Of a DNA stretch of 64,000 bases, positions 46,870 through 64,000 are shown piece after piece; the first letter of the stretch is position 1; every line of letters starts with the position of its first letter. Made by a program: the position numbers and the translations under genes. Under the pieces are notes generated by a model. The model saw only the letters and a program-made list of their open reading frames with translations, did no database searches and had not been told where the DNA came from. The stretch spans positions 1-64,000 of the forward strand of contig NZ_QNUM01000012.1 of the NCBI RefSeq assembly GCF_003574655.1, given 5' to 3'. Source of the stretch: Cohaesibacter haloalkalitolerans (GTDB taxonomy: Bacteria > Pseudomonadota > Alphaproteobacteria > Rhizobiales > Cohaesibacteraceae).

Positions 46870-48876
46870 TTAGTCCTTTAGATAGGCCTTCAAGTCATTC
46901 AGACTTTCGATTACCCTCCTTTCTTCATTTCCCGAGGTTTCATCGATCCAAGGCAAAATCTCCCTCTTGATATTGCCACGATCTATGAGGAGTGCGGGCA
47001 TAGTGAGCCGTTCTGCCGCACTCAGATCTTCAGGGCCATCGCCCACGAAAAGACAGTCTCGAGCATCGAGTTCCAGATGGCGACAGGCCATCATCAGAAG
47101 GTCTGGTCTTGGTTTCGGTGACAGGGTTTTCTGCCTGCCAAACACCGCTTCTGTCAACGGGGCAAGGCCGAGCCTTTTGACCAGCGCTTCGGCGTCGTTC
47201 TGGCGCTTGTTGGTTACAACCACAAGGCGACAGGACTGCCCTGAAAGCGCCTCGAGAACCGGCATGACGTCTGGATAGAGACGGGCCAGACGGTCTTCAT
47301 GCCGTTGATAGCAAGACAGATAGTGGTCAAGCTGTGCCTGTTGCTCCTCATTGTCTGGCGCTTCTCCTGATTGCTCTGAAATCCTCCGGATCAGCCGTCG
47401 GGCCCCACCGCCCAGACAGCTGGCCACCAGAGTCTCGGAAACCGGGGGGCGCCCGACAACGGCCCGGGCCTCATTCAGCGCCGCATGGACGGCAGGCAAC
47501 GTGTGGGCCAGCGTGCCATCAAGATCGAAAAGCACCGCTTTTGGTCCTGCCCCATTGTCGTGGCAAACCGGAACCCTTTTGCTCTTGTGGGGTAGCAACA
47601 ATATATCTGCCCGTTGCAGGCGGATCGTCAGATGGCCCTTTTCTGTTGCATGCATGAACGCGGGTAAGCTGTGCAGTTGCACAAGGACACTCTCTGCCAA
47701 ACTGTCATTTTTCGCAATGGGAACAGCTGCGACATTCAGCTGCAATTCCACACGGCCTCGTCCATCGCTGGTCAACACAGCGGCATAGTCCGTCACTCCA
47801 CTCGTCGCGAACAGGGCCTCATCAAGCGCCCCGCGCGTCAGCATCCCGCCGCCCGGAAGCTTCAGGGCCGTGTTCAGCCGGTCATCTGGGCCATAGAGGC
47901 GCCGCGTGACGTTGCCGCAAGCGCAGGGCTCATCGATCAGGCATCCCAAATCGCCGGTGCGATAGCGGATCAGCGGCAGGGTTTCCCTGCGCAGCGTGGT
48001 GATCGTGATTTCTCCTCTGGCCCCGGCTGGCAACACCGCGCCGGAAAGCGGGTCGATGATTTCCAGATACAGATCGGACTCCCGCACATGCAGGCCGTCG
48101 TGACAGACGCATTCGAGCGCCCCGCCGTAGCCGGTTTCCGTCATGCCCCAATGATTGAAGACCTTGGTGTGCCACATGGTTTCAAGGCCAGTTATGACGG
48201 CACGGGCGGCATGGTCGGCGCTGATGAGGATAGCGCGCGGATGCGGCACCAGGCCGCCATCCGAGAGAGAAAGGCGTGCTGCGGCGAAGAAGGGAACGGG
48301 GATACCGAACAGCACGTCGGGCTGTTCGGTGCGAAGCCAGCCAAGCAATGCGTCTGCCGATGACACATCCGGTGCCGTCAGTGGCGTTGCGCCCAACCGT
48401 CGTGTCGCTTCGCACAGGCCCTGCCCGATGCTACCGGACCGCACCGCCGGAAAGGCAATGCCGACCCGATCACCCGGGCGGGCAAACTGGCTCATGCCGC
48501 GATGGAAATAGTCGATGGTGTTTTCCAGATCCTCATCAGAGAAAGCCATGCGCTTGGGCGCTCCCGTGGTGCCCGAGCTTTCCAGCGTCACCATACGCGC
48601 CACCCGGCGGCGCGGCGCAGCCATGAGCGGAGGATCATTCCGCGCAAGATCCTCCGGCCATGTGAAGGGCAGATCCGCCAGATCCTCAAGGCTCTGAGGC
48701 AGGTCTTCGGGCCAATGGGCAAACTGGCGATAGAAGGGACTGTTGGCCCGAGCGTGGCGGATCGTCTGCCGCATGTGGTCAAGCTGATAGGCGTCGCGCT
48801 CCTCAAGGGTTTCAAAGGGACAGAAGCCGCGCACATCGATCATTGCGCCCTCGCTCTGCAAGATGATGTTCAGCAT
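46870..48876 (-). CDS. AMP-dependent CoA ligase-like protein (DVU_1553 family) fused to HAD phosphatase
   Basis: 668 residues. The start at 48876 has AAGGAGG 5 bases upstream and overlaps the radical-SAM stop by 7 bases (ATGCTGA). Residues ~10-435 resemble phenylacetate-CoA ligase: ..MVTLESSGTTGAPKRMAFS.. (ATP loop), ..FNHWGMTETGYGGALEC.. and ..LIRYRTGDLGCL... Residues ~450-668 are a phosphoglycolate-phosphatase-like HAD: ..VLFDLDGTLAHT.. (nucleophile), ..VVVTNKRQ.., ..KPRPDLLMMA.. and ..CLFVGDGPEDLSAAE... It is the last gene of the long operon. An activated acid may be attached to something and a phosphate removed, but the substrates are unknown. Confidence 0.82.
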   Translation of the reverse strand: MLNIILQSEGAMIDVRGFCPFETLEERDAYQLDHMRQTIRHARANSPFYRQFAHWPEDLPQSLEDLADLPFTWPEDLARNDPPLMAAPRRRVARMVTLESSGTTGAPKRMAFSDEDLENTIDYFHRGMSQFARPGDRVGIAFPAVRSGSIGQGLCEATRRLGATPLTAPDVSSADALLGWLRTEQPDVLFGIPVPFFAAARLSLSDGGLVPHPRAILISADHAARAVITGLETMWHTKVFNHWGMTETGYGGALECVCHDGLHVRESDLYLEIIDPLSGAVLPAGARGEITITTLRRETLPLIRYRTGDLGCLIDEPCACGNVTRRLYGPDDRLNTALKLPGGGMLTRGALDEALFATSGVTDYAAVLTSDGRGRVELQLNVAAVPIAKNDSLAESVLVQLHSLPAFMHATEKGHLTIRLQRADILLLPHKSKRVPVCHDNGAGPKAVLFDLDGTLAHTLPAVHAALNEARAVVGRPPVSETLVASCLGGGARRLIRRISEQSGEAPDNEEQQAQLDHYLSCYQRHEDRLARLYPDVMPVLEALSGQSCRLVVVTNKRQNDAEALVKRLGLAPLTEAVFGRQKTLSPKPRPDLLMMACRHLELDARDCLFVGDGPEDLSAAERLTMPALLIDRGNIKREILPWIDETSGNEERRVIESLNDLKAYLKD

Positions 48877-50546
48877 CCCCCCTCCTTCCGGTAAAGGGAG
48901 CGCCCTTCGCGGTCAGTCAGATTGAAGGCGCAGAAAGGTACCGCTCTCTGGTCAGGCATCATGACATGGATATAGCACTGGCGCAGCCGGTCGAGATCCA
49001 GCGTCCAGGCATCCTGAAACACCATCGCCGATAAGCCGAGCGTGTGCGCCCGCCGCTTCAACACCGCGTCAAATGCCGCAAAGGCAGGGTCGTCGGTGCC
49101 CTCGTCCGCCTCGGCGTTGCTCCACTGGTCGGCGACATAGCGCCGGGCACGGGCAACATCAGCACCGGGCGCAGTCTCCCGCCCCGCTTCAGAGCCGCAA
49201 CAGCAGCTGTCATTGGCCGGGTCTGCAAGCGTCTCGGTTCCGGAGGAGCAGCAGCAATCTTCATGGGAATGGTTATGCGCCTCAGACGCGACAGGAGCCG
49301 GTTGCATCACCAGCAGATCCTTAGCGGGCGCACCGCAGCCGCAGGACCCGTGCGGATGAGGTGCCGGTTCCGATGAGCCCGAGCAACAGCCTTCGGACGC
49401 CGGTTTTTCCACTTGTGGCAGCGCAAGCAGATCTTCTCCCGGAACGCCACAGCCGCAAGATTGACCATGGCCCTTGTCGGCATCGGCGTCCCCCGAACAA
49501 CAAGACGTCTGGGCGAGCTGATCCGGCATCAGGCGGCCATCTTCCTCAACAATGAAGCGGCCGCTGAAGGAACAGAAGGGATTTTCCGCAGACCCGGGAT
49601 GGAAATCATCGAGCAGTATCCCGCCCTTCTCATGCGCGATCAGGGCATCCATGACTTCCGGCAATGTGAAGCGGGTTTCGGGCCGGGGTGGCTCCGGTGT
49701 CCGACCGAAATAGCTGACCGGCTGGAAATGCACCGCGCGGACGGTCGGCATATGGGCCTTGGCATAGTCCACGATTGCGCCGATCTGATCGGTGTTGATG
49801 CCCGGAACAAGGGTTGGCACCAACACCACCCCGACACGGGCCTTCTCGCAGGCGGCAATTGCCTCTTCCTTGACCCGGGCCAGTTTGGCGCCGCGCAGGG
49901 CCTTGTGGACGGTATCGGAGACGCCATCGAACTGCAGGAAAACACAATCCAGACCGGCATCGGCCAGCGCCCTGACATAGTCAGGCTCTTTTGACAGACG
50001 CACACCATTGGTGTTGAGCTGGACAAAGGAGAAGCCCTTCGAGCGCACAAGGCTGATGATTTCCGGCAAGTCATCCCGTACCGTCGGTTCGCCGCCGGAC
50101 AGCTGGATATGCACCCTGCCGCCTGCGCGCTGCATGAGCGTATCGAGCCATTGGCTGATCGTCTCGATCGGCACATCCGTGCCCTCCCGCTCGGCCGAGG
50201 CAAAGCAGAAAGGACAGGCAATGTTGCAGCGGGATGTTACTTCGAGCAGGACACAGCAGCTCTGCTGCTGATGATCTGCGCAGATACCGCAGTCATGCGG
50301 GCACCCCTTGTCAACCGGGGTTGCCGGGTTGAGGATTGCCGAGCGGTTGCGCGGTGACCGATCCCAGTGAAAATAGCTCTTGAGGCCACGCCAGATGGGT
50401 GTACTGACGGTTCCATGGTCCGGGCAGCTCTTCTCCAGATAGACCGTATCCCCTTCGGCATATCGAATGGCGGGCACGGTTTTGAGGCAATCCGGGCAGA
50501 CGCTTTCCGTCGTGCTCAAAACCAGTCGACTGTCTGAACAGGTCAT
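48870..50546 (-). CDS. trsS: radical SAM protein of the TrsS type with Cys-rich repeat insert
   Basis: 558 residues. The start overlaps the NTP-transferase stop (ATGA). N-terminal Cys pairs (C17/C20, C41, C82/C86/C89) precede the radical-SAM cluster ..SRCNIACPFCFAS.. (C107, C111, C114), followed by ..LSGGEPTVRDDLPEI.. and ..QLNTNGVRL... From ~349 to 450 lies an insert with two 30-residue repeats, each CCSG-x10-SCGCG-x4-DLL-x4 (349-378, 387-416), then two CCC clusters. The protein ends in Cys. From memory, relatives are listed as a radical SAM (seleno)protein TrsS in the DVU_155x neighbourhood; here all sites are Cys. The role is probably modification or maturation of the neighbouring oxidoreductase or its cofactor. 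Confidence 0.85.
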   Translation of the reverse strand: MTCSDSRLVLSTTESVCPDCLKTVPAIRYAEGDTVYLEKSCPDHGTVSTPIWRGLKSYFHWDRSPRNRSAILNPATPVDKGCPHDCGICADHQQQSCCVLLEVTSRCNIACPFCFASAEREGTDVPIETISQWLDTLMQRAGGRVHIQLSGGEPTVRDDLPEIISLVRSKGFSFVQLNTNGVRLSKEPDYVRALADAGLDCVFLQFDGVSDTVHKALRGAKLARVKEEAIAACEKARVGVVLVPTLVPGINTDQIGAIVDYAKAHMPTVRAVHFQPVSYFGRTPEPPRPETRFTLPEVMDALIAHEKGGILLDDFHPGSAENPFCSFSGRFIVEEDGRLMPDQLAQTSCCSGDADADKGHGQSCGCGVPGEDLLALPQVEKPASEGCCSGSSEPAPHPHGSCGCGAPAKDLLVMQPAPVASEAHNHSHEDCCCSSGTETLADPANDSCCCGSEAGRETAPGADVARARRYVADQWSNAEADEGTDDPAFAAFDAVLKRRAHTLGLSAMVFQDAWTLDLDRLRQCYIHVMMPDQRAVPFCAFNLTDREGRSLYRKEGGC

Positions 50547-51730
50547 GATGCGGCCTCCAACATGTTTCTGATTTCCATCGGTACGCCTGGGACCTCAACA
50601 CCCTCAGCTGTGATTGCGGCAACGATGGCAAGGGTATCGTTGAGGCGTCGGCGGACGCCTGCCAAGGCTGCGGCGTCGTCCGCAAAGCGCGAGAAAGCCG
50701 GAGCAAAGCGCGCTTCAAGACCAACGATCTGCTCCCCCGAGACGAGCTTGTCGGCGAGATAGACAAGGGCGACTTCATCAAGCCGCCGGTATCCCTCAGA
50801 AAGCGCCATGTGCTGACCGACGAGATCGGCAACAGCGGGGAAGCCCCAGTCTGAGAGCAGGTTCGCCCCTGCAGTTGCATGATGGGGCTGACCCTTGGCG
50901 ATGTCATGCAGCAATGCTGCGGCACCGACCAGAGCGATGTCCAGCGCCCTGCCATGTTCGTTGAGATTTTCCGCCAGCAAGACGGCCAATTTGGCCACCG
51001 CCTGCCCGTGACGGCGCACCGTTTGCGGCGTTCCCGCCGCATCGAACAGCGCTTCGCATTCCCGTCCGTCCGGCAGATGGTGATTTTCCAGAGCGGCCAG
51101 TTGAGCAACGTGATCCTGCGGGAAGTCCATATCCCTGAGGCAGCCGGAATCAAACACGGCGATCGTATCCGAGCCATGGCGCGACAGGATCGCGGCGGCT
51201 CCACCCTCCTGCCCGTCAGACGCCAGCAGTTCGCCAAACAGGGCCCGCCCGATAAAGGGAGGATGACCAGTGGTGCCGTCGAACAGCGGATGGACCAGCA
51301 TGGACTGGTTGCGCCGCGCTTTTGCCATGACACGCCGAAGGGTCGTTGGCCTGACCAGCGGGATATCGACGGGCATCAGCAGACAGCCGGACGTCTCACT
51401 TGGCAGAGAGGCGATCCCGGCCCTGATGGAACTGAACATGCCATCTTCAAAATGAGGATTGATCACGGCAACAGCACCAAGGTGCTCGACATGGGGGCGA
51501 AGCTGGTCCGCCTTGTGGCCGATCACGACATGAACGGGATCGGCTCCCGCTTGCTGCGCCACCTGCACGACATGGCTCAATATTGTGCCCTCTCCGAACG
51601 GCAACAGAGGTTTGAACGCCCCCATGCGTGAGGACAGCCCGGCGGCCAGGATGACAGCCGCGATCGGGGCCTCGTTGTCGCTTGTCTGGGCTTGTCTTTC
51701 GAGCGTTTCGATTTGCGCAAGATCCATCAT
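50543..51730 (-). CDS. NTP transferase (MobA-like) fused to HD domain, DVU_1551 family
   Basis: 395 residues. The N-terminal ~200 residues are a MobA/MocA-type nucleotidyltransferase: ..AVILAAGLSSRMGAFKPLLPFG.. and ..LLMPVDIPLVRP... This group usually attaches CMP or GMP to molybdopterin. The C-terminal ~170 residues hold an HD domain (..AALLHDIAKGQPHHATAG..), a metal-dependent phosphohydrolase. The fusion fits making the cytosine dinucleotide form of Moco used by MOP-type enzymes, as MocA does, with the HD part removing some nucleotide. It overlaps both neighbours by ATGA. Confidence 0.85.
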   Translation of the reverse strand: MMDLAQIETLERQAQTSDNEAPIAAVILAAGLSSRMGAFKPLLPFGEGTILSHVVQVAQQAGADPVHVVIGHKADQLRPHVEHLGAVAVINPHFEDGMFSSIRAGIASLPSETSGCLLMPVDIPLVRPTTLRRVMAKARRNQSMLVHPLFDGTTGHPPFIGRALFGELLASDGQEGGAAAILSRHGSDTIAVFDSGCLRDMDFPQDHVAQLAALENHHLPDGRECEALFDAAGTPQTVRRHGQAVAKLAVLLAENLNEHGRALDIALVGAAALLHDIAKGQPHHATAGANLLSDWGFPAVADLVGQHMALSEGYRRLDEVALVYLADKLVSGEQIVGLEARFAPAFSRFADDAAALAGVRRRLNDTLAIVAAITAEGVEVPGVPMEIRNMLEAAS

Positions 51731-52215
51731 GAGAGGAACCCCAATGTGTCCGCTTCCTCGCCCGCTTCCCCACCACGCGGCGGGTGCGTGATATCAAGGT
51801 CATAGCGTTCGAGTATCTCGTTGAGCTTCTGCCAGCTCTCAGAAATCAGGGCCGGACAACGCTGGGCTCGGAGATTGAGGTCAAACTGCATGATGTCGCT
51901 ACAATTGCAGCCGCCATATTCCTCGCTACAGCGATGCTTGAACCAGCCACCGAACTCCTCGAGAATGTCGACAAATCGGCTGTCTTCGCTTTCTTCCTCG
52001 CTGGCCTTGCCCGCCAGCATGCCGACAACGCAGCATCCGGCGGAAAGGATACCGCAGGTCATGCCCTGCCCCATGCCGACAGCAAGACCGGACATGGCGC
52101 GCACGAGGTTCGGGTCCTGTCGACCTGCCGCTTCCAGCGCCAGGATCATCATGATGTGGCTGCATTTGAGATCGGCGAGCAGCAGCTCGGCCACGCGAAA
52201 GGAGTCTTCGGTCAT
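51727..52215 (-). CDS. C-GCAxxG-C-C family protein (DVU_1555 type)
   Basis: 162 residues. The ATG at 52215 overlaps the methyltransferase stop by 4 bases. The redox/Fe-S type C-GCAxxG-C-C pattern is visible: Cys18 in ..LKCSHIMM.., ..MTCGILSAGCCVVG.. (C54, C61, C62), and later ..HRCSEEYGGCNCSDI.. (C96, C103, C105) and C-terminal ..RCPALIS... The family is of unknown function; such proteins are thought to bind a cluster or to do thiol redox chemistry. Its position inside the coupled accessory run suggests a role in maturing the aldehyde oxidoreductase. Confidence 0.85.
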   Translation of the reverse strand: MTEDSFRVAELLLADLKCSHIMMILALEAAGRQDPNLVRAMSGLAVGMGQGMTCGILSAGCCVVGMLAGKASEEESEDSRFVDILEEFGGWFKHRCSEEYGGCNCSDIMQFDLNLRAQRCPALISESWQKLNEILERYDLDITHPPRGGEAGEEADTLGFLS

Positions 52216-53009
52216 ATCCCTGCCTCCTGACAGTTTCCCCTTGGCGGAGTGGCCACCCGGCCGGTCGGCTTGACCGCAATAGCCATGTAATATCCGGGTT
52301 TTACGGCGCGCATTCGGGCGCCGGTGCGCGCATCCCCCCACAAGGCATCAAGCGAGCCGAAACGGAAGATGAAGCGGGCCACAAAGCTGCGCAGGCATTC
52401 GGAGCGATCTTCGAAAGCCAGCAGTTGGAACCCCGCCAGACCGATTGCCTTTCTTATCCTTTCCGCGGAAAGAAGGCGGATCGCCCTTGTCGTGTCTTCG
52501 CTGTCCGCTGCCTCGGGGTTGCGGGCATAGACATCGCAAAGGGCCAGCCGCCCCCCGCCACGCAAAACCCTGAACCACTCGGCAAGGGCGGCGCGATGAT
52601 CGGGCATGACCGTCAGCACACATTCGGACAACACCCCGTCCATGGAGCCGGTCCCAAGTGGCATGGCCGCACCGCTGCAGCAGAAAAGATCCACATCCGG
52701 CAGCAGGTTTCGGGCCATTGCGAGAGGGGCCGCATCAGTGTCGACACCCACCACGTTCAATCCGCGGCGGATCATGTCGCCAAGGCTGCGGCCCTGCCCA
52801 CACCCCACATCGACCACACGGTCTCCGTCTCGAAAGCCCGCCCGATCAAGCAGCTCCCCGGTCAGTTGCGGTCCACCGGGGCTCAGAGGATCGCCATTCC
52901 GATCGGTAACAAGGCCATACCCGAACAGGCCCGAGCAGCCATTGGCATGCTGCCCCACGCTCTGCTGGGGTTCCGGTTCAGTCACACCGTGGGGACTGTA
53001 GATCTTCAT
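52212..53009 (-). CDS. trsM: SAM-dependent methyltransferase (DVU_1556 family, TrsM)
   Basis: 265 residues. Class I methyltransferase: ..VVDVGCGQGRSLGDMI.. (SAM loop), ..VVGVDTDAAPLAMARN.. and ..LSECVLTVMPDHRAAL.., a UbiE/ArsM-like set. Two Cys in ..DLFCCSGAA.. and one in ..LSECVL.. are unusual. It is coupled by ATGA to the small redox protein before it and the C-GCAxxG-C-C gene after it. The target of methylation is unknown. Conserved pairing with the TrsS radical SAM gene in other genomes (family knowledge, from memory) implies a joint product. Confidence 0.85.
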   Translation of the reverse strand: MKIYSPHGVTEPEPQQSVGQHANGCSGLFGYGLVTDRNGDPLSPGGPQLTGELLDRAGFRDGDRVVDVGCGQGRSLGDMIRRGLNVVGVDTDAAPLAMARNLLPDVDLFCCSGAAMPLGTGSMDGVLSECVLTVMPDHRAALAEWFRVLRGGGRLALCDVYARNPEAADSEDTTRAIRLLSAERIRKAIGLAGFQLLAFEDRSECLRSFVARFIFRFGSLDALWGDARTGARMRAVKPGYYMAIAVKPTGRVATPPRGNCQEAGI

Positions 53010-53224
53010 TTGTCCTCCAGCGCCTGTTCGACTTTCAGCATCCGACCATAGGCCAGCTCTTCGGAAATATAGACAAAGCCGCAGGTCGGGCAGATCGGCA
53101 GGTCCACAGGAAAGGTCTGGCCCATATAGCTGGCCAGAACCTTGCCCTGTTTGAGCGGCGTATCACATCGGGCGCACATCAGATCGTCCACCTGCGGTAT
53201 TTCAAAGTCGCCGGGAGTTGTCAT
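53006..53224 (-). CDS. small redox / zinc-ribbon protein (DVU_1557 family)
   Basis: 72 residues with two Cys pairs, ..LMCARCDTPL.. (C17, C20) and ..LPICPTCGFVY.. (C45, C48), forming a rubredoxin-like or zinc-ribbon knuckle. The rest is helical and charged. It is too short for an enzyme; a metal- or electron-carrier role is likely. It is coupled by ATGA to the FAD-CCG oxidoreductase before it and the methyltransferase after it. Confidence 0.85.
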   Translation of the reverse strand: MTTPGDFEIPQVDDLMCARCDTPLKQGKVLASYMGQTFPVDLPICPTCGFVYISEELAYGRMLKVEQALEDK

Positions 53225-55560
53225 TTTTGTGCCTCCACATCCATGCGATGGCCATAGGCGCGGTGGATGAGCGCCCCTTCATCGGTCAGTTCATATTCCA
53301 CCCAGGTGGTCACCGGCCCGGTGCGCAGGGTCGCGATCAGATGACCGCTCTTGCGGTCCTTCAGCTTCTGGCCGCTTGTTTCCGCATGAGCCACGACGGC
53401 GCAAACCTCGTCGGTGAGGATCAACTTGCGCTCCATGTCGGCGCGAACGGCATCTGAAATCAGGATGGTCCATTCAGGATCCGGGTCTTGCATGGTTTCT
53501 CCCCATAACTCTCGCAGCAATCGGCTTTTCAAACGGGCCCTGTTGTCTCGTCGGTTGGAGAAACCCGGATCCGGACGGGCAGCCGGATCGGTATCTCCCT
53601 CAACCGGGAACAGGAAGTCGAGCAGGTGAGCGGAGCGTTTGCCACGCCGGGCGAAATTGTCCCGGCACATGGCGCAGTAGGCCAGATAGTCCTCGGGGCG
53701 TTCCGCGGCCCGCTTGTCGACGATGGCGTCAGCCACCTCCCGATTGGCAAAAGTCACCAGACCGCCATAACCGCAGCAGGTTGTCAGCTCCGGCCCGGAT
53801 ATTTCCCGCACCGTCAGGCCTATATCGGCGGCGATGGATCGGACTGCAGTGTGAACCTCGCTCTCGTGACGGCCTGTGCATGGATCGTGAATGGCAAATA
53901 CCGTTCCGGGCGCAACGGGCCTCGTTGACTTCGGTAACGGGGCCTCGGCAAGAAGTGGCCAGAGGGATCGCACGGGAAGATCGGGCATCGTCTTCCGGAA
54001 CATCGACAGGCAGGTGGCGCAGGCCGTGATGATCTCCGGTTGGCCAGCAGCCTGCCAGCTTTCACGCAGGTGAGCCACCACCTCATCATGCAGAGCCTTG
54101 CGTCCGGCCCAATGGGCGGGCGCTCCACAGCAATCCATCATCAGGCCAACACCACCGGCGAGTGTTTCGCCCAGATGCTGATAGAGCTTCTGGACCTGCT
54201 CAGGCGCCGATGCAGCCAACTGGCAACCGGGAAAGAACAGATAGGCGCTGGCGTCATGACCGGGCTGGTGGCGGACAAAGGCGGAGCGGTGCGAGCGACT
54301 GTCAGCCATGTCCCGCAAGGCAAAGTCGTGATGGGAGGCAGGCATGTGGCCGTTGTCCACCATCTCCCGGCGCGCCTCAAGGCAGACATCGCCCATGGCC
54401 AGATCTGTCGGACAGACCGTCTCGCACAATCCGCAAAGCGTGCAGCTATCGATCATGCGGTTGGCCTTGCGATTGCCCATGACGATGCTGAGATTGTTAT
54501 GGATTTCGCGAACAGCCCGCTTTGGATAGGTCTTGTAATGAGTGAGATAGGCGCAGGCCTTGGTGCACTCAAGGCAATTGCAAGGGAAGCAACGGTCCGC
54601 TTCTGCTATGGCCTCATCGGGGGTGTAGCCGATCTTGCTGTTGGCGGCCTCGACGGGAGGGACGGCAGGGTGCGCTTCGATATTGACGTAGAGGCAGGAG
54701 GTCGTTGCCTTGGTGCCGTCCCGGTTGGCCATCAGGGAGGCGCCTTGAAGGAAGCGGTCTATGGACCCGGCGGCCCGCCGTCCGTCATAGATGGACTTCA
54801 CCGGAGAATAGACCTCGCCCAACGCCCCGTGATAACCGCCACCGAAGATCTTCGGGTGGCTGGTCGCGCGGCTGTCGGGGTCGATTTCAATGCGGCCATT
54901 GTCGCTGAGCTTTATGGTCGGGGCAAAGGCTGCGGCAACGCCCGGCCCGAGGGCGAGCAGAATGGCGTCCTGGTCTTCGATCAGGCTTGCAAGGCCCAGC
55001 GGTCCCTCGCCGCCAGTCACCCGGCTGCGACAGCGGATGTCAACGCCAAGGGCGGCAAGACTACCCAGATCAAGGGCAATCGCAGACGGCGGAAGAATGT
55101 GCGGTTCATAATCGTGATGCAACCGTTCGAGCGGATGGGCGTCCGCTTCCAGAACGGTGACCTTGTGGCCCTTCATGGCCAGATCGAATGCTGCAGTCAA
55201 TCCGGACAACCCGGCCCCGACGACGGTCACGTGCTTGGGTCTGGCGATCCGTTGAGCCTGTCGGCGCAGGGTGGAACAAGTCTCATCGACCAGTGTCCGC
55301 TCGATTTGGGAAATGCGCACAGCACCACCAGCCTCGGCCCGGCGACAACCTGCCTCGCAGGGGTGATCACAGATATGGCCAAGGATGGCCGGAAATGGCA
55401 CAACGCGGGAATATAGGGCGAATGCCGCCGGAAAATCCCCCAGTTTCACCTTGGCCAGCATCGCCCTGACATCGACATGCAAGGGACAGGACACCTCGCA
55501 GGCGGGAGGTTGTTCTTCGATGCATCTTGCTTCCAGTCGCTTTACCTGATCGCTATCCAT
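53221..55560 (-). CDS. FAD and multi-FeS oxidoreductase with HdrB-like CCG domains
   Basis: 779 residues from the ATG at 55560 (GGGGC upstream). Order: GltD-like N-terminal Fe-S bundle (..CIEEQPPACEVSCPLHVDV.., ..CDHPCEAGCRRAE..); FAD Rossmann ..VTVVGAGLSGLTAAFDL.. (~108); two ferredoxin-type clusters (..CFPCNCLECTKACAY.., ..CTLCGLCETVCPTD..); then a GlpC/HdrB-like part with CCG (..FFPGCQLAAS..MMDCCGAP.., ..HDPCTGRHE..TTCCGYGG..); a C-terminal ~90-residue domain closes it. I cannot find the second GxGxxG expected for NAD(P) binding in GltD. Family name from memory: pyridine nucleotide-disulfide oxidoreductase/dicluster-binding protein. It is the likely electron hub next to the aldehyde oxidoreductase. 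Confidence 0.85.
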   Translation of the reverse strand: MDSDQVKRLEARCIEEQPPACEVSCPLHVDVRAMLAKVKLGDFPAAFALYSRVVPFPAILGHICDHPCEAGCRRAEAGGAVRISQIERTLVDETCSTLRRQAQRIARPKHVTVVGAGLSGLTAAFDLAMKGHKVTVLEADAHPLERLHHDYEPHILPPSAIALDLGSLAALGVDIRCRSRVTGGEGPLGLASLIEDQDAILLALGPGVAAAFAPTIKLSDNGRIEIDPDSRATSHPKIFGGGYHGALGEVYSPVKSIYDGRRAAGSIDRFLQGASLMANRDGTKATTSCLYVNIEAHPAVPPVEAANSKIGYTPDEAIAEADRCFPCNCLECTKACAYLTHYKTYPKRAVREIHNNLSIVMGNRKANRMIDSCTLCGLCETVCPTDLAMGDVCLEARREMVDNGHMPASHHDFALRDMADSRSHRSAFVRHQPGHDASAYLFFPGCQLAASAPEQVQKLYQHLGETLAGGVGLMMDCCGAPAHWAGRKALHDEVVAHLRESWQAAGQPEIITACATCLSMFRKTMPDLPVRSLWPLLAEAPLPKSTRPVAPGTVFAIHDPCTGRHESEVHTAVRSIAADIGLTVREISGPELTTCCGYGGLVTFANREVADAIVDKRAAERPEDYLAYCAMCRDNFARRGKRSAHLLDFLFPVEGDTDPAARPDPGFSNRRDNRARLKSRLLRELWGETMQDPDPEWTILISDAVRADMERKLILTDEVCAVVAHAETSGQKLKDRKSGHLIATLRTGPVTTWVEYELTDEGALIHRAYGHRMDVEAQK

Positions 55561-55674
55561 CTTGTTGCCCCGTTGGTCGGTCTCTATTGCCGGGCCCGGA
55601 GGATCCGGGTCCAGCAAGCTTGGCGGGGAGGAACAGGGTCGAGTAAGAGGCATACCCGACCCCGCGCCCACTGA

Positions 55675-55722: not shown

Positions 55723-58476
55723 TCAGGCGAACTCTTTAGGGGCTTTTTCCCTTGCTGCCTTTGCCTCGAGTTCCGTTCTGATGATTTCCGGAAGGGCCGG
55801 AACACGGAAGATGCGCACGCCACAGGCGTTGTAGATGGCGTTCAGGATGGCCGGATGAGCCGCAGTCAGCGGCGCTTCACCGACACCAGCTGCCCCGAAC
55901 GGTCCGTCAGCACGTGGCGTTTCCAGATACAGGATCTCGATGTCATCGGGGATGTCCTTCGGATAAGGAATGCCGCAATCCATCAGATTGGTATGAAGCT
56001 CCAGATCCTCGAAGTCTTCGGACAGGGCCAAACCGATACCCTGCGCCAGACCGCCATAAATCTGACCATCCACGGTGGCCTTGTTGATGATGGTGCCAAC
56101 GTCGACGGACGTGGTGAACTTGACCACCCGAACTTCGCCGGTCTCGACCTCGACCTCAACCTCAGGCATGAACACTTCATACATGTAGATCGGGAACGGA
56201 TTGCCCTGAGCGGTTTCGGAAGAACAATCGGTGCAGGCGGCTGCAACCCAGTTACCGTCATAGACGAGCGGGATGCCATCGGCGACCATCTCGTCGTAGG
56301 TCCGGTAAGTGCCATCCTCTTTCTTCATCGCATTGAGCAGCATCTCTGCTGCGACGCGGGTGGCGTTGCCGGTGAAGACGTTGGAACGGCTGCCGCCAGC
56401 GGGACCGGAGTTCGGACCGTTGGTGTCATTCATGACCAGAGAGATCTGTTCCGGCTTGATGCCGGTTGGCCGCAGCACTTCATGGGCCATGGTCAGTGTG
56501 CCGAGATCAGCCCCCTGCCCGTGATCTTCCCAGGCGTTGTAGATGGTGACCCCGTCCTTGGTCAGTTCGGCACGGGCGTTGGAGCTATCCGGACCATCAA
56601 GACCGCAGCCATAGATGCCCAGAGCGATACCGACGCCGCGTTTGACTTCATCGGTGGACAGCTCTGCGCAACGCTTCTTGGCTTCCTGATATTTCGGCCG
56701 CAGCATGTCGAACAGCTGAGGCAGAACCAGCACTTCAGGCTTCTGTCCGGTCGGGGTTGTCGAGTTTTCGTTATAAAGGTTCTTGTAGCGGAACTCGAAC
56801 GGATCCTCGCCCATCTTCTCGGCCAGAATGTCCATCGCCGTTTCAGAAGCAAGGAAGGCCTGCGGCGACCCATAACCGCGGAAGGCGGAGCCCCATGCGT
56901 GGTTGGTGGCAACCGTGAGGCCCTTGCCACGGATGTTTTCCAGATGGTAGCCCGCACCGGTGAACTGGGCCTGACGCAGGGTGACCAGATCACCGAATTC
57001 GGAATATGGACCGTGATCGAGCCACCAGTCGGTTTCCATCGCGGTCAACTTGCCATCGGCGTTGCAGCCAAGCTTGATGTTGATGTTGACCGGGCTGCGT
57101 TTGCCTGTGTAGGTGATGTTCTGATACTGGTCATAGACCAGAGATACCGGCTTGCCGGTGGCAAGGGCAGCAACGCCCAGCAGGGCTTCCATGGTCGGGG
57201 AGAACTTGTAGCCGAAGGTGCCACCGGTCGGGTTCTGGATCAGGCGCAGTTTGTCCGGCTCCAGGCCAAGGCCCGGACAGATCATGGCATGATGCAGATG
57301 CACGCCGATGGATTTCGACAGGATTGTCAGAACGCCATCTTCATCGACATAGGCCTCCCCGCAGTCCGGCTCCAGATGCAGATGTGGCTGGCGGCTGCAA
57401 TAGGTGGTGATGTCAACCAGTTGGGAAGCGCTCGCCAGCAGCGGCTTGGTGTCCGCCCCCTTGACGACGCCCTGTTCATAGTAGGCATTCGGCGTGCCTG
57501 GATGAATTTCGATGGCGTCCGGCGCAAGAGCCGCAAAGCCTGACATGTAGGCAGGCAGAACCTCGACATCGACCTTCACCTTCTTGGCTGCCGCGCGGGC
57601 ATGCTCTTCGGTGTCGGCCGCAACGATTGCAATGGCGTCCCCATACTGGAAGATCTTTTCCTTGCAGAGGATCGGACGGTCCCAACCATCGCCCTTGTTG
57701 TCCGGGAAGGTGATGAGACCGGTGATGGCGTTCCGGCCCTTGACGTCTTCCCAGGTGATGACCTTGGCAACGCCGGGCATGGTTTCGGCTTCAGCGGTAT
57801 CGATGCCCTTGATCAGGCCATGCGGCACTTCGGCCTGAACCAGCGCCAGGCGCAAAGTGCCTTCCGGCATGCGCAGGGCAATGTCGGCACCGAAGTCCCA
57901 TGTGCCGGTAACCTTGGCTTCTGCCGACGGGCGAATATGGGATGTCCCGAGGATCGAGCCGTCTTCCTTCGGTTTCGGCATGATCTGGGCAACCGTCTTT
58001 TCACCGCGCATGACGGCGGCGGCATCCATTACCGCGTCGACCAGCGGCTTGTAACCGGTGCAGCGGCAGAGGTTGCGGTTCCGGTTGAACCATTTGCGGA
58101 CCTCTTCGCGGGTCGGGTTGATGTTCTTTTCCAGCAGCGCCTTGGAAGACATGATGAAGCCGGACGTGCAGATACCGCACTGTGCGCCACCATGGGTCAT
58201 CCAGGCGATCTGGATCGGGTGCAGGTTGCCCGGTGTGCCGACGCCCTCGATTGTCGTGATTCTGGCGCCTTCGCGCACATCACCGATCTTCTTGTTGCAA
58301 GAACGGATCGGCTTGTCATCGATGATGACGGTGCACGAGCCGCACTGGCCGTCGTCGCAGCAGACCTTGCAGCCGGTCAGCATCATCTGTTTGCGCAATA
58401 CATCAGCAAGGGAGGCTTCTGGCTCGGCAACGATCCAGCGATCCACTCCGTTGACGTTCAGTTGTATTCTCTTCAT
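55723..58476 (-). CDS. mop: molybdenum aldehyde oxidoreductase, MOP type (DVU_1559 family)
   Basis: 917 residues; AGGAG precedes the ATG at 58476. It belongs to the xanthine oxidase family as a single chain without FAD, oxidising aldehydes to acids. The plant-type [2Fe-2S] ligands are C40, C45, C48, C60 (..VCCDDGQCGSCTV..) and the second cluster C100, C103, C137, C139 (..AQCGICTSG.., ..NLCRCTGY..), numbers equal to those in D. gigas MOP. Glu867 in ..GVGEAPLTAAHP.. fits the catalytic Glu869 there. The cofactor would be molybdopterin cytosine dinucleotide. It is placed between xdhC (57-base gap) and the FAD-CCG gene in the long operon. Confidence 0.92.
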   Translation of the reverse strand: MKRIQLNVNGVDRWIVAEPEASLADVLRKQMMLTGCKVCCDDGQCGSCTVIIDDKPIRSCNKKIGDVREGARITTIEGVGTPGNLHPIQIAWMTHGGAQCGICTSGFIMSSKALLEKNINPTREEVRKWFNRNRNLCRCTGYKPLVDAVMDAAAVMRGEKTVAQIMPKPKEDGSILGTSHIRPSAEAKVTGTWDFGADIALRMPEGTLRLALVQAEVPHGLIKGIDTAEAETMPGVAKVITWEDVKGRNAITGLITFPDNKGDGWDRPILCKEKIFQYGDAIAIVAADTEEHARAAAKKVKVDVEVLPAYMSGFAALAPDAIEIHPGTPNAYYEQGVVKGADTKPLLASASQLVDITTYCSRQPHLHLEPDCGEAYVDEDGVLTILSKSIGVHLHHAMICPGLGLEPDKLRLIQNPTGGTFGYKFSPTMEALLGVAALATGKPVSLVYDQYQNITYTGKRSPVNINIKLGCNADGKLTAMETDWWLDHGPYSEFGDLVTLRQAQFTGAGYHLENIRGKGLTVATNHAWGSAFRGYGSPQAFLASETAMDILAEKMGEDPFEFRYKNLYNENSTTPTGQKPEVLVLPQLFDMLRPKYQEAKKRCAELSTDEVKRGVGIALGIYGCGLDGPDSSNARAELTKDGVTIYNAWEDHGQGADLGTLTMAHEVLRPTGIKPEQISLVMNDTNGPNSGPAGGSRSNVFTGNATRVAAEMLLNAMKKEDGTYRTYDEMVADGIPLVYDGNWVAAACTDCSSETAQGNPFPIYMYEVFMPEVEVEVETGEVRVVKFTTSVDVGTIINKATVDGQIYGGLAQGIGLALSEDFEDLELHTNLMDCGIPYPKDIPDDIEILYLETPRADGPFGAAGVGEAPLTAAHPAILNAIYNACGVRIFRVPALPEIIRTELEAKAAREKAPKEFA

Positions 58477-58533
58477 CACTCTTCTCCTAATCCTGCGGCT
58501 GGAAAGCTCCATCCGCCTGCTGGTTCCCGAGAG

Positions 58534-59400
58534 CTAGGCACTCGCGTGCACTAGATCCTCCCCATTTTCAGTCCCTGAATTGGCTGTTAGGTACAAATCA
58601 CCTATGGTCCTCGATTGTCCGTCCAATTCTTCAGCGCCCCGGACATGAGCGATCATTTGGGCAACCACCGAAACGGCGATTTCCTCCGGGTTGTCGGCAC
58701 CGATCTCCAATCCCACCGGTGCTCGGACACGGCTCAGCTGTTGGGCGGAAATTCCGGCCTCCAGCAATTTGCTATTGATGGTGCGGATCTTGCGTTTAGA
58801 GCCGATCATGCCGATGTAGCTCGCAGGGGTATTGACCGCCCAGGCCAGAACCTCCTTGTCGCAAATATGTCCGCGGGTCGCGATGAAGATGATCGAGCGG
58901 GCATTCGGCTCAAGTTCCTTCATCGTCTCCTGCCAGGGTCCCGCAAGGGTCTTCACCGCAAAGGGAAAGCGCTCTGCATTGGCAAATTCGGCACGGTCAT
59001 CGATCACCACAACGTGGTAGCCGACGCGATGGGCCAGTTCGGCTGTCACCAGTCCGACATGGCCGCCACCGAACATGTAGAGCGTTACTGCGGGCAGAAA
59101 GGGTTCGACGAAAATGTCAAGGCTCCCCCCGCACACCATGCCGCTGTCCATCAGCGGGTTGTCATGCAGGTTGAAGGAAATCATCTCCGATTTGCCATTC
59201 TCCATCGCCTTTCTGGCGGCCTCGATGATCTTTCCTTCCGCAAGACCACCGCCGACCGTTCCCACGATCGACCCATCGGCGCGAACAAGCATCTTTGCCT
59301 TGTCCGACGCGGGGATGGAGCCGTTTGTGGTGACGATCGATGCCAGGGCACAGGGCCGTCCGGCCTCGTGCTCCCTGATCAGTTCCTTGAACACCTTCAT
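58534..59400 (-). CDS. xdhC: XdhC family Moco insertion chaperone
   Basis: 288 residues. XdhC proteins bind molybdenum cofactor, support its sulfuration and hand it to xanthine-oxidase-family enzymes. The N-terminal part shows ..CALASIVTTNGSIPAS.. and ..GSIVGTVGGGLAEGKI..; ..DSGMVCGGSLDIFVEP.. carries the conserved Cys. The Rossmann-like C-terminal part is ..LYMFGGGHVGLVTAELAH.., with ..VIDDRAEFANAERFP.. and ..IGMIGSKRK... AGGCGAGG lies upstream of the ATG. It immediately precedes its likely client, the MOP-type enzyme. Confidence 0.92.
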   Translation of the reverse strand: MKVFKELIREHEAGRPCALASIVTTNGSIPASDKAKMLVRADGSIVGTVGGGLAEGKIIEAARKAMENGKSEMISFNLHDNPLMDSGMVCGGSLDIFVEPFLPAVTLYMFGGGHVGLVTAELAHRVGYHVVVIDDRAEFANAERFPFAVKTLAGPWQETMKELEPNARSIIFIATRGHICDKEVLAWAVNTPASYIGMIGSKRKIRTINSKLLEAGISAQQLSRVRAPVGLEIGADNPEEIAVSVVAQMIAHVRGAEELDGQSRTIGDLYLTANSGTENGEDLVHASA

Positions 59401-59555: not shown

Positions 59556-59747
59556 TCACACGTGATAAACCGCGCCCGACTGGCAGACTTCCACACATTG
59601 CGGTTCGTCGAAGTCGCCCTCGCATTCCTTGCATTTGCTTGCGTTGATGGAATAGAGCTTGCCTTTGCGGGTGATGGCCTTGTTCGGGCATTCGTCGATG
59701 CATGCGCCACAGGCTTCACAGATGTCCTGATCGATTGCGTAAGCCAT
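59556..59747 (-). CDS. 2[4Fe-4S] ferredoxin
   Basis: 63 residues. Two cluster motifs: ..CEACGACIDECPNKAI.. (CxxCxxCxxxCP) and ..CKECEGDFDEPQCVEVCQSG.. (CxxC-x8-CxxxC, the long-loop form of Allochromatium-type ferredoxins with very low potential). It is a soluble electron carrier. It lies between the hydrogenase subunits and xdhC/mop, exactly where a carrier from aldehyde oxidoreductase to hydrogenase would be expected. Confidence 0.93.
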   Translation of the reverse strand: MAYAIDQDICEACGACIDECPNKAITRKGKLYSINASKCKECEGDFDEPQCVEVCQSGAVYHV

Positions 59748-59772
59748 TGTTTTCTCCTCTCAGTCTTCTTTG

Positions 59773-59797: not shown

Positions 59798-59905
59798 TTG
59801 CAGGTCATGTCCCGGACCACGATCAAGCGTGGCGCATGGGCATGCCCTGGTCTCCAGTCCCCGCCCTGCCCTTGCCTTGCGGCAAGCGCAGAACCGGGGC
59901 GTGTT

Positions 59906-61006: not shown

Positions 61007-61008
61007 GC

Positions 61009-61629
61009 TCATGCCTCCTTGGCTGCGGCCATGACGCGCGCCCACAGCTCATCAGAGGTGGACGCATTTGCCATCTGGGAGAAAGGGATCAACCGGTCGA
61101 GAACGGCACCATCAATGCTCTCGTCGAGGAACAGGCGTCTCGGATCCGGATGGTTGGTGATGGTGACGGAGTAGATCTCCATGATCTCCCGTTCCGGCCA
61201 GTCGGCCGAGCGGAACAAGGGCGTGAGGGAGGCTATGGAACCGCCAGCGGGGAGAAATGCTACGACATTCACATAGTCTCCACCCACGTCGAAGTGATAG
61301 ACCAGTTCATAGGATGTACCGTCTTGCGGCGTACCGCCAAAGCTCATCGATTGTTCGGGTACATGCGCTTCGGCTTCTGCTGCACCTTCATCCTCCTCGT
61401 CCTGTTCCTCCTCTTCTTCTTCGGGAGCGGGTGGTTTGTTAGCGGTGACCATGGCCAGCCGCGCGTGATAGCTGCGCAGGCATTCTCCCACGGCGGAAAG
61501 ATCATCCCTGTCTGCGAGTTCGCACCACATGACCGAGACGCCATGGTCATCAGTCGTGGTCGTCAGATTCACGCCGTGTGGCGCTGCCGCGTTCAGGCTG
61601 GCTTCGAAATTTTCAGGAAAACGTGTCAT
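61009..61629 (-). CDS. hydrogenase subunit, 30-kDa NuoC-like (CooU-like)
   Basis: 206 residues. The start at 61629 is coupled to the previous stop through TGATG. The C-terminal ~100 residues carry the NuoC/HycE N-domain pattern: ..YELVYHFDVGGDYVNVVAFLP.., ..SIASLTPLFRSADWPEREIMEIYSV.. and ..NHPDPRRLFLDESI... Residues ~68-92 are an unusual strongly acidic insert (..PAPEEEEEEQDEEDEGAAEAE..). The subunit contacts the large and small subunits and holds no cofactor. Confidence 0.88.
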   Translation of the reverse strand: MTRFPENFEASLNAAAPHGVNLTTTTDDHGVSVMWCELADRDDLSAVGECLRSYHARLAMVTANKPPAPEEEEEEQDEEDEGAAEAEAHVPEQSMSFGGTPQDGTSYELVYHFDVGGDYVNVVAFLPAGGSIASLTPLFRSADWPEREIMEIYSVTITNHPDPRRLFLDESIDGAVLDRLIPFSQMANASTSDELWARVMAAAKEA

Positions 61630-62126: not shown

Positions 62127-62140
62127 CTCGCTAACCCTCC

Positions 62141-62578
62141 TCACATCCGCTCTCGCCAGATCTCGATTGCCTTGGCCACGCCTTCGATGATGGCTTGCGG
62201 GCGCGGCGGGCAACCGGGAACATTGACGTCGACGGGGAAATACTGATCGATCGGCGCTTTCACCGAATAGCTCTCGCGGAAGATGCCGCCCGAGATCGGG
62301 CAAACGCCCACAGCAACAGTGACCTTGGGGTCCGGGATCTCGTTGAAGACCACCAGCGCAGCCTGCATGACCTTGGTTGTCAACGGGCCGGAGATCAGCA
62401 CGATGTCGGCATGGCGCGGAGAACCGCAATACTGGCAGCCGAGCCGCTCGATGTCATAGCGCGGGATCAGGGCGGTCGTGGCCATTTCGACGTCGCAACC
62501 GTTGCAGGACCCGGCGTTGATGCGATAGATCCATGGAGATTTTGTCGCTATCGACTTGAAGTCGGGGATCATGTTCAT
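62141..62578 (-). CDS. hydrogenase small subunit (NuoB/HycG-like, CooL-like)
   Basis: 145 residues from the ATG at 62578 (GGAG upstream); an in-frame TTG lies 15 bases earlier. The proximal [4Fe-4S] ligands are C25, C28 (..NAGSCNGCDVEM..), C93 (..GVCPISGGIF..) and C123 (..VPGCPPRPQAI..). Further family marks are ..LGCQYCGSPRHADIVLISGPLT... It hands electrons to the Ni-Fe site of the large subunit. It lies 18 bases after the membrane-subunit stop. Confidence 0.93.
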   Translation of the reverse strand: MNMIPDFKSIATKSPWIYRINAGSCNGCDVEMATTALIPRYDIERLGCQYCGSPRHADIVLISGPLTTKVMQAALVVFNEIPDPKVTVAVGVCPISGGIFRESYSVKAPIDQYFPVDVNVPGCPPRPQAIIEGVAKAIEIWRERM

Positions 62579-62596
62579 TTCATCTGTCTCCAAATC

Positions 62597-63556
62597 TCAG
62601 GCCACGATGGTGACGGTGACAACGCTGGCGATGGCGAGCAGCAGCGGCCACTTGAGGAAAAAGCCGAAGGCCTGGTCGATCCGCATGCGGCCCATGGACA
62701 GGCGCACCACGGTGACGCCGATTTCCATCAGCACGGCCAGTTGCACCAGCCAGCCAACCAGACCCCAGATGCCGTCGAAGGGCAGCGGCATGAAGAGGGC
62801 TATGCCGAGGCTAAGAACAACAACGGCCTTGAGTGCGGACATCACCTTGAACAGCCCCAGCGCCGGACCGGAATACTCAAGTAGCGGCCCTTCGAGCACT
62901 TCGGTTTCGGCTTCGGGGATGTCAAAGGGGATGATCCCGAGGTTGGCCGGGAAGAACAGGGCAAAGGCAGCCAGCGCTGGCCACATCACCGGATCGAGCA
63001 GGAACATGCCATGGCTGCGCTGGTAGGCGATGATGTCAGTGAGCGAGAAGGTGATGACACCGCCCTGCCCCATGCCGGTGCGCAGAGCAACGGCCAGCAC
63101 GGCCAGCACGATCGGGGCTTCATAGGCCAGCATCAGGGTCATTTCCCGCGAAAAGCCGAGCGCACCATAGGGAGAGGTCGAGGCCGAGCCTGCGATCATC
63201 AGGACAATGGCCGGAACCATCAACAGGTAAAGCAGCACGATGAGGTTGCCCAGCATCGGGTCCGGGCTGTAGAGCCCGGAAACCGGCACCAGGGCCACAG
63301 CAACCAGCATGGAGACGACACCAACGAGCGGCGCTCCCAGAAAGACCGGCTGACTTGCCGTGGCAGGCACCATCGTGCGCTTGAAGCCGAGCTTGACGAG
63401 GTCAAAGAATGGCTGGGCAAGTGGCGGCCCGATGCGCCCCTGAAGACGAGCGGCGACGCGCCGGTCGAGGCCCTTGAGCGACAGCCCTAGCACCAGAGCG
63501 AACAGGCCGCCGGGGAACAGGAATACCGCAAGAAGTGTAGTGAGTTGCGTGGACAT
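62597..63556 (-). CDS. hydrogenase membrane subunit (NuoH/HycD-like, CooK-like)
   Basis: 319 residues with about eight membrane helices. The NuoH family patterns are clear: ..GRIGPPLAQPFFDLVKLGFKR.., ..AYEAPIVLAVLAVAL.. and ..IPFDIPEAETEVLEGPLLEYSG... The acidic residues in the last are conserved in complex I and group 4 hydrogenases and line the coupling channel. It anchors the catalytic arm to the membrane. The upstream antiporter-like gene ends 14 bases before. Confidence 0.92.
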   Translation of the reverse strand: MSTQLTTLLAVFLFPGGLFALVLGLSLKGLDRRVAARLQGRIGPPLAQPFFDLVKLGFKRTMVPATASQPVFLGAPLVGVVSMLVAVALVPVSGLYSPDPMLGNLIVLLYLLMVPAIVLMIAGSASTSPYGALGFSREMTLMLAYEAPIVLAVLAVALRTGMGQGGVITFSLTDIIAYQRSHGMFLLDPVMWPALAAFALFFPANLGIIPFDIPEAETEVLEGPLLEYSGPALGLFKVMSALKAVVVLSLGIALFMPLPFDGIWGLVGWLVQLAVLMEIGVTVVRLSMGRMRIDQAFGFFLKWPLLLAIASVVTVTIVA

Positions 63557-63570
63557 GGTTGTTCCCTCCC

Positions 63571-64000
63571 TTACGCTTGGGTTCCAGAGCCGATCCCCTT
63601 GGGCAGCAGCCCGTGGATCGCCTTGTCGGGGGTTTCAAAGAGGCTGTTGGCACCAAGCCGGGTCTGACCATCGGAAAGATCGCCGACGCCGCAGACATGG
63701 GCATTGGAGCGGACCACGCCGGCCTTGCGACCAAGGCGCAGCCAGGGCAGCAGGATGAGTCCGAACACCAGTACCAGTACGGACAGCAGCATCGGGCTCC
63801 AGCCATCCAGCCCCGGCAACGGACCGGTCAGCGTGGCGGCAATCGGGGTCATGCCGAGATCGGACATGATGGCGGCGATCGGCACCAGAGCAAGACCGGG
63901 GAAGAGACCAAGCGCCAGACTGCCAAGGCTGAGAACACCCATGGGAATGAGCATCGCAACCGGGGCTTCCCGAGCACTTTCACTGCGCGGGTTCGGTGTC
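63571..64000 (-). CDS. C-terminal part of antiporter-like hydrogenase subunit (HycC/NuoL-like, CooM-like), cut by window
   Basis: The open frame runs past base 64000 without a stop, so only the C-terminal ~142 residues are seen. They contain ..SAREAPVAMLIPMGVLSLGSLALGLFPG.. (typical end of the NuoL/MrpA-type domain, ..REAP..M..PM..L), a further helix ..MLLSVLVLVFGLILLPWL.. and a soluble tail with ..NAHVCGVGDL... The subunit is expected to move H+ or Na+. It is the first visible gene of the operon; its start and any promoter lie outside the window. Confidence 0.85.
   Translation of the reverse strand, partial: TPNPRSESAREAPVAMLIPMGVLSLGSLALGLFPGLALVPIAAIMSDLGMTPIAATLTGPLPGLDGWSPMLLSVLVLVFGLILLPWLRLGRKAGVVRSNAHVCGVGDLSDGQTRLGANSLFETPDKAIHGLLPKGIGSGTQA

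Follow-up and report, generated by a model that had tools for sequence, protein, structure and literature searches.

What supplies electrons to a Coo-type hydrogenase that is encoded next to a molybdenum aldehyde oxidoreductase, with neither a carbon monoxide dehydrogenase (CODH) nor a formate dehydrogenase (FDH) in the cluster? This question is raised by a stretch of DNA from the marine bacterium Cohaesibacter haloalkalitolerans (the window), which comprises bases 1-64000 of a 74,393-base contig in a genome of 5.0 Mb. Our answer, to which we give a probability of roughly 0.6, is that the locus encodes a self-contained aldehyde-to-H2 system, in which aldehyde oxidation would drive H2 release through a ferredoxin. 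Judged from the genes and their relatives, direct coupling of aldehyde oxidation to the hydrogenase appears likely.

Conserved linkage of the hydrogenase and the aldehyde oxidoreductase

Thirteen genomes of the close hydrogenase clade were read, picked by the similarity of the hydrogenase large subunit CooH and not by that of the aldehyde oxidoreductase MOP. The first-pass annotation had proposed a search of genomes for the same joint neighbourhood, and this neighbourhood was indeed recovered: the order hydrogenase, ferredoxin, xdhC, MOP, FAD/CCG oxidoreductase and Trs-type genes is present in seven of the 13, namely the window genome, Cohaesibacter marisflavi CGMCC 1.9157, Breoghania corrubedonensis DSM 23382, Consotaella salsifontis USBA 369, a Rhodospirillum metagenome-assembled genome (MAG) and two genomes of that MAG's family (G1249 and G1250). 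The linked order occurs in Hyphomicrobiales, including C. marisflavi, whose CooH is 95% identical to that of the window, as well as G1249 and G1250, and the three named strains make the idea directly testable. In two further genomes, G545 and G560, both hydrogenase and MOP were found, on different contigs. The other four of the 13 are a Sideroxyarcus MAG, a Rhodospirillum rubrum-like genome (G1260), G1246 and a Bilophila MAG.

The two enzymes also occur together. Among 199 genomes of the order, CooH was matched in the window genome, G560 and G545 (64-67% identity) and G411 (43%), while MOP (E≤1e-150) was matched in three genomes, the same three that carry the close CooH. The chance that two and two of 198 genomes (window genome left out) coincide is 1 in 19,503, a figure to be read with the proviso that related genomes do not count as independent. 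Neither a close CooH nor MOP is present in five other members of the genus in this set. Elsewhere, CooH matches were limited to the window genome and two others at 36-37% among 385 genomes of the class (E≤1e-70), to the window genome among 398 of the phylum (E≤1e-85), to five of 73 genomes from the Rhodospirillum MAG's family, and to 22 of 72,556 plasmid records, all under 60% identity; MOP matched four of these plasmid records at 31-33%. In nine genomes, moreover, the identities of CooH rise and fall with those of MOP (Mantel r 0.82, p 2e-4). The conserved order and the co-occurrence show that the link between hydrogenase and MOP is not a matter of chance.

In the CooH tree, five linked genomes group with the unlinked G545 and G560 (99/98), while G1249 and G1250 join another genome, G1246 (98/97). 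The Rhodospirillum MAG clusters with Cohaesibacter and Breoghania (99/97 with Breoghania) and not with G1249 and G1250 of its own family; the MOP tree gives the same placement with weaker support (86/94). This placement suggests block transfer, or a misplaced contig in the MAG.

Organization of the gene run

As delineated by open reading frames (ORFs) and family profiles, the minus-strand run comprises 21 genes, from the start of cooM (contig base 67431) to hypE (39009):

63571..64000, minus: cooM, two antiporter-like modules in one chain, 1286 amino acids (aa) whole, 3' end in the window; Glu/Lys motifs in both modules
62597..63556, minus: cooK, NuoH-like membrane subunit, 319 aa
62141..62593, minus: cooL, NuoB-like hydrogenase small subunit, 150 aa
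61629..62192, minus: cooX, 2x[4Fe-4S] subunit, 187 aa
61009..61677, minus: cooU, NuoC-like with acidic insert, 222 aa
59906..61045, minus: cooH, group 4 [NiFe] hydrogenase large subunit, 379 aa; both CxxC motifs, no C-terminal extension
59556..59747, minus: small 2x[4Fe-4S] ferredoxin, 63 aa
58534..59400, minus: xdhC-type maturation factor, 288 aa; NF045664 286 bits, below the cut-off of 350
55723..58512, minus: MOP, predicted molybdopterin-dependent aldehyde oxidoreductase, 929 aa; NF045668 1564 bits, cut-off 1100; Desulfovibrio gigas aldehyde oxidoreductase (AOR) 1sij, E=0
53221..55671, minus: FAD/dicluster/CCG oxidoreductase; NF045663
52212..53009, minus: DVU_1556-family methyltransferase; family model over cut-off
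51727..52341, minus: DVU_1555-family C-GCAxxG-C-C protein; family model over cut-off
50543..51730, minus: DVU_1551-family NTP transferase (MocA-like) with HD domain; family model over cut-off
48870..50546, minus: TrsS radical SAM protein; NF045646 597 bits, cut-off 490; HMPTM-type zinc ribbon
46870..48876, minus: DVU_1553-family AMP-dependent ligase fused to a HAD phosphatase; family model over cut-off
45024..46730, minus: GAF-CRP regulator with a CooA-like DNA-binding half
43959..44870, minus: hypB, family profile
41555..43876, minus: hypF, family profile
41176..41658, minus: hypC
40040..41179, minus: hypD
39009..40043, minus: hypE, AIRS domains, named by place

The first-pass annotation had described sixteen consecutive minus-strand genes ending at 46870. 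The same-strand run and the cluster itself hold, with a corrected count and extent: cooM to the ligase-HAD gene (46870) makes 15 genes, as there are five Trs/DVU155x accessory genes, one of them the ligase-HAD fusion, and not six, and the minus strand continues beyond 46870 through the GAF-CRP regulator, hypB, hypF, hypC, hypD and hypE. Intergenic gaps range from -130 to +211 bases, and the five longer than 130 bases (139, 153, 155, 158 and 211) mean that the run need not be a single transcript. cooM crosses the window edge, the full gene occupying 63571-67431 on the contig.

The hydrogenase

The six hydrogenase subunits stand in CooMKLXUH order, and CooH, which carries both CxxC motifs, ends straight after the second, as it does in the three relatives checked for the stop (G1249, G1250 and G545). 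Window CooH is 60% identical to the CooH of a Rhodospirillum rubrum-like genome (G1260), vs 36-38% to HycE and 40-43% to the Azospirillum proteins; in the tree, a branch with 100/100 support places it nearer the CODH-linked CooH than the formate hydrogenlyase or Azospirillum types. On subunit order, motifs and tree position, we assign the hydrogenase to the CooMKLXUH type (CO-linked group 4).

The features of an energy-converting hydrogenase are present, with antiporter-like and NuoH-like subunits carrying channel motifs. Two modules of CooM align with subunits of the antiporter type, and all eight CooM Glu/Lys patterns are retained in six of 16 aligned rows (the window, C. marisflavi, the Rhodospirillum MAG, Breoghania, G560 and a betaproteobacterial Sideroxyarcus MAG), seven in G1249 and G1250, and fewer in remoter rows. 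These membrane-subunit motifs make ion pumping by CooM/CooK plausible, less surely so than the aldehyde-H2 coupling. As a separate observation, CooU contains a strongly acidic insert at residues 86-104 (window 61366-61422).

The predicted aldehyde oxidoreductase and its accessory proteins

MOP is 61% identical to D. gigas AOR (547/898 positions), and the alignment keeps the eight cluster cysteines and the glutamate of GVGE (869). Three cysteine patterns, covering seven of the eight cysteines, recur in 10/10 MOP rows, as does the catalytic glutamate if the GCGE form of Breoghania is counted. Family score, the two [2Fe-2S] motifs and the catalytic glutamate together identify MOP, at the sequence level, as a MOP-type aldehyde oxidoreductase. 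Furthermore, F425, F494, L497 and Y535 (D. gigas numbers), which we take to be the substrate channel residues of D. gigas AOR, are unchanged. These data bear on whether MOP acts on another substrate, such as an N-heterocycle, the aldehyde reading being then a matter of annotation only. The xanthine oxidase family is broad, with several kinds among the MOP matches, which would allow for this; the 61% identity, the kept channel residues and, in the Sideroxyarcus MAG, an AOR close to the same hydrogenase speak for an aldehyde and make another substrate quite unlikely.

Seven of the eight proteins of the MOP cluster score over their curated cut-offs, the exception being XdhC, and the models for TrsS, DVU_1551, 1553, 1555 and 1556 all exceed theirs, so that the Trs/DVU155x accessory set is present. 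When the FAD/CCG protein is aligned with flavoproteins, the match continues on either side of a gap of about 125 residues, presumably the missing NAD(P) domain; these flavoprotein relatives are assumed to bifurcate electrons. An AlphaFold model of the protein (mean predicted local distance difference test score 47, from 5 sequences) was not used. TrsS contains a cysteine-rich repeated insert at residues 349-455 (window 49182-49502).

A possible path from aldehyde to H2

A ferredoxin of the cluster type was found behind cooH in all nine genomes with a close MOP and in the AOR-bearing Sideroxyarcus MAG (E≤1e-5), and at this threshold it was not found in the stretches of the CODH-bearing R. rubrum-like genome, G1246, Bilophila, G411 or Azospirillum. 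Of all observations, this distribution points most clearly to the ferredoxin as the carrier.

The genes allow the following scheme, drawn from families and motifs. Given its family, its identity to the D. gigas enzyme and its kept catalytic residues, the single-chain molybdenum enzyme MOP would oxidize aldehyde to acid. Electrons would then pass from its two [2Fe-2S] centres to the 63-residue 2x[4Fe-4S] ferredoxin, directly or via the FAD/CCG protein, and from there through CooX, CooL and CooH, whose motifs are intact, to protons, yielding H2. CooM and CooK might use part of the drop of about 150 mV to move ions out, which is the least certain step. XdhC, the MocA-like protein and the Trs/DVU155x set would mature the molybdenum enzyme, and HypABCDEF the hydrogenase. 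One paper (PMC9304861) gives potentials near -560 mV for aldehyde/acid and of -414 mV for H+/H2; this difference corresponds to about 28 kJ per mole at standard conditions, enough for an ion or so.

The same genes could also be read in the opposite direction, with carboxylic acids being reduced to aldehydes at the expense of H2 and an ion gradient. Both hydrogenases and AORs can in principle work in reverse, and the AMP-dependent ligase homologue of the DVU_1553 family in the run might activate the acid. However, the reaction would be uphill on the above potentials (PMC9304861), and no alcohol dehydrogenase was recognised among the genes of the run, so we regard this direction as very improbable.

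The regulator and its candidate binding sites

The regulator combines a GAF half like that of DhaR with a CRP-type half; plasmid matches to the GAF half are mostly of the AcoR type. Its recognition helix reads RQTVSTA vs RQTTSTA in CooA, and Arg takes the place of the CooA haem histidine (His77), a comparison that covers the local regulator, no genome-wide search for CooA having been made. A histidine stands at this position in three of seven aligned regulator rows (Consotaella, G560 and Azospirillum lipoferum 4B), and because of it these three may sense CO or haem. The regulator matches 36 of the 72,556 plasmid records, of which only one covers at least 80%: that of A. lipoferum 4B, where it lies beside an AOR-hydrogenase line.

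When up to one mismatch was allowed, the box TGTCR-N6-YGACA was detected in 13 of the 19 regions tested, between -260 and +60 relative to the projected first start, while the sum of the random-window rates (0-0.07 per region, one mismatch) predicts about 0.6 boxed regions. The pattern is a relaxed version of the CooA consensus TGTCGGCNNGCCGACA given in PMC545781. Regions without a box are those of Sideroxyarcus cooM, Bilophila cooM, Bilophila MOP, and the AOR starts of G411 and of Azospirillum B510 and 4B; strain 4B has three sites further upstream, between regulator and AOR line. Before cooM of the window genome, an exact box starts at contig base 67457 and is accompanied by a one-mismatch site that is 33 bases more distant from the gene. 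The cooM gene and the unlinked xdhC of G545, which lie on different contigs, are preceded by boxes set in one and the same 25-mer. Another exact match, at 59044, lies within xdhC and was taken as chance. No strict sigma-54 pattern was found before cooM in two genomes; the loose GG-N10-GC pattern gave 2 and 3 matches and was not used.

With its AcoR/DhaR-like GAF half and CooA-like DNA-binding half, the regulator would most likely switch the unit via the CooA-type boxes before cooM. A broader proposal, which we advance tentatively and at somewhat below even odds, is that a coo regulon has been rewired from CO to aldehydes: hydrogenase and operator would have been kept, with an aldehyde oxidase module taking the place of CODH and a GAF sensor of an aldehyde or related carbonyl that of the haem sensor. 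The product would be an energy-conserving aldehyde-hydrogen lyase, of the molybdenum type in Alphaproteobacteria and of the tungsten type elsewhere.

Comparison with known systems

The R. rubrum coo system (G1260) resembles the window in its subunit order (CooH 60%), its CooA-type boxes and the DNA-binding half of its regulator. However, it has CODH (CooS) and a haem CO sensor where the window has MOP and a GAF-CRP regulator without the haem histidine, and a different ferredoxin follows its cooH. The window genome lacks two marks of an R. rubrum-type CO oxidation system, the CODH catalytic subunit and a local regulator with His77, and also the FDH partner over cut-off that would mark a formate hydrogenlyase.

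In vitro, D. gigas AOR has been coupled to H2 via flavodoxin, cytochrome c3 and a NiFe hydrogenase, according to PMC10223205. An aldehyde-to-H2 chain as such is therefore already known, and the window system is a variant of it: the aldehyde enzymes are homologous, and in place of the four soluble proteins of that chain, the window encodes a group 4 membrane hydrogenase and a ferredoxin in one run. If our reading is true, an energy-converting hydrogenase could have aldehydes as its dedicated donors, besides the CO and formate already known, the old D. gigas chain would gain a physiological setting, and the unexplained Trs genes would become easier to approach. No MOP/Coo-hydrogenase cluster was found in literature titles and the openings of abstracts; subscription papers and preprints lay outside this scope, so a prior description is possible.

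The Bilophila/Desulfovibrio hydrogenase shares the CooMKLXUH type (CooH 56% in a Bilophila MAG); unlike the window, this MAG has no MOP in the stretch read and no cluster-type ferredoxin behind cooH. Three MOP-family genes of the same MAG (G584) lie off the hydrogenase contig, on C28, C18 and C29 (60, 48 and 31% identical), the first of them in a Trs-type cluster. Closer to the window is the Sideroxyarcus MAG, the only one of 300 genomes of its order with a CooH match, which shares the hydrogenase clade (CooH 66%) and the ferredoxin but has a tungsten-type AOR (PF01314/PF02730) 2.8 kb downstream in place of MOP; regulator and box pattern were not found in the stretch examined. Its region L007:11479-17173 holds a ferric-reductase-like ORF, the AOR together with a second ferredoxin, and a gene for a TupB-like tungstate permease (160 bits, cut-off 320). 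Azospirillum B510 and 4B likewise have an aldehyde-oxidising enzyme family and a group 4 hydrogenase in one line, with the same regulator type in 4B, but the enzyme is an AOR and not MOP, and the hydrogenase is remoter (40-43%), with separate NuoL- and NuoM/N-type subunits. On these plasmids, AOR, a MoaD/ThiS-family protein and the hydrogenase lie in line at L069:3791-13083 and L070:3905-13529.

Electron donors and rival explanations

The absence of CODH and FDH from the cluster, which had been noted from the window, extends to the rest of the contig and, at the family cut-offs, to the whole genome. The CODH model TIGR01702 had no match in the window genome and exceeded its cut-off in none of the nine genomes searched; the FDH alpha model TIGR01591 exceeded its own in four of nine, but not in the window genome or C. 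marisflavi, and its best match in the window genome is a BisC/TorA-type enzyme. A donor gene of either kind just right of base 64000, which the first-pass annotation had held to be fatal to its proposal, is not there: hypA, moaA and moeA on the plus strand are followed by eutC and eutB on the minus strand and then by the contig end at 74393.

Several observations weigh against the aldehyde-to-H2 reading. The [2Fe-2S] centres of D. gigas AOR are at higher potentials than H+/H2, so that ferredoxin reduction could be a bottleneck. The hydrogenase also occurs with other partners, or without MOP close by: in the R. rubrum-like genome it goes with CODH (CooS 828 bits), and in G1246 no MOP was found within the 34 kb compared. 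In the Sideroxyarcus MAG, a 127-residue ORF and the ferric-reductase-like ORF separate cooH and its ferredoxin from the second ferredoxin and AOR. The linked genomes do not form one group in the CooH tree (2 changes), so the linkage is either old, with losses, or arose twice, and the genomes compared are related and not independent. As for the control region, the box pattern was defined after the regions had been inspected, one-mismatch boxes inside the window show no excess (7 found vs 7.1 expected, the cooM boxes lying outside it), and the regulator was not found in the G1249 and G1250 stretches.

To these points is added pyruvate:ferredoxin oxidoreductase (PFOR), which could be a real alternative electron donor for the ferredoxin. 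The window genome encodes a PFOR-like protein of 1663 aa (400 bits vs a cut-off of 911), and in ten genomes the family exceeded the cut-off in two (G1249 and G1250) and gave some match in nine, lying on the hydrogenase contig itself in G545 and the Sideroxyarcus MAG. The hydrogenase might accordingly be a general valve for ferredoxin reduced by pyruvate or other 2-oxoacids, with MOP adjacent through shared metal-cofactor maturation and anaerobic induction and without direct electron coupling; a Coo hydrogenase of Desulfovibrio vulgaris is tied to lactate oxidation (PMC5042321). A valve of this kind does not lead one to expect the close CooH and MOP in the same three of 199 genomes, the same order in Hyphomicrobiales and in G1249 and G1250, the 25-mer common to both G545 promoters, or the AOR near the Sideroxyarcus hydrogenase, and Breoghania, which has the linked hydrogenase and MOP, gave no PFOR match. 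Overall, we consider the valve unlikely. The PFOR-like gene of the window genome, at G000:C21:195278-200269, also shows a weak HdrC-like match near the C-terminus of its product.

A last difficulty concerns energy conservation. The Consotaella cluster has no cooM or cooK beside it; upstream of its cooL (L005:1-8459) are genes for a DapA-like aldolase family protein, a DctP-like binding protein and a FAD-linked oxidase. This arrangement would suit aldehyde detoxification, with H2 as a mere vent and no energy conserved, a role proposed for a gut tungsten enzyme in PMC9304861. Such an explanation keeps the electron coupling and denies the pumping, so that its odds overlap those of the aldehyde-to-H2 reading. 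However, cooM and cooK are present in the other six of the seven linked genomes, four of which keep all eight CooM Glu/Lys patterns and two (G1249 and G1250) seven of eight, and we judge detoxification alone to be somewhat unlikely. The original proposal of aldehyde-driven H2 release with ion pumping therefore comes through in part: the ferredoxin-linked pairing gains from gene order, co-occurrence, the G545 25-mer and the Sideroxyarcus AOR, while pumping, read from motifs, loses ground through Consotaella.

Other observations

Rfam gave 0 matches over bases 36000-64000, promoter and terminator scans of the contig end gave 5 and 9 sites vs 5.4 and 13.1 in shuffles and were not used, and PADLOC gave 0 families for three unrelated window proteins. 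The eutC and eutB genes, at contig 71755-73916 just outside the window, encode ethanolamine ammonia-lyase, an acetaldehyde-producing enzyme. The idea that EutBC is a generally conserved source of the aldehyde was rejected: EutB is absent from three of the five genomes searched, and that of C. marisflavi (63% identical) is on another contig. Beside the window cluster, the pair is a local hint of where an aldehyde might come from.

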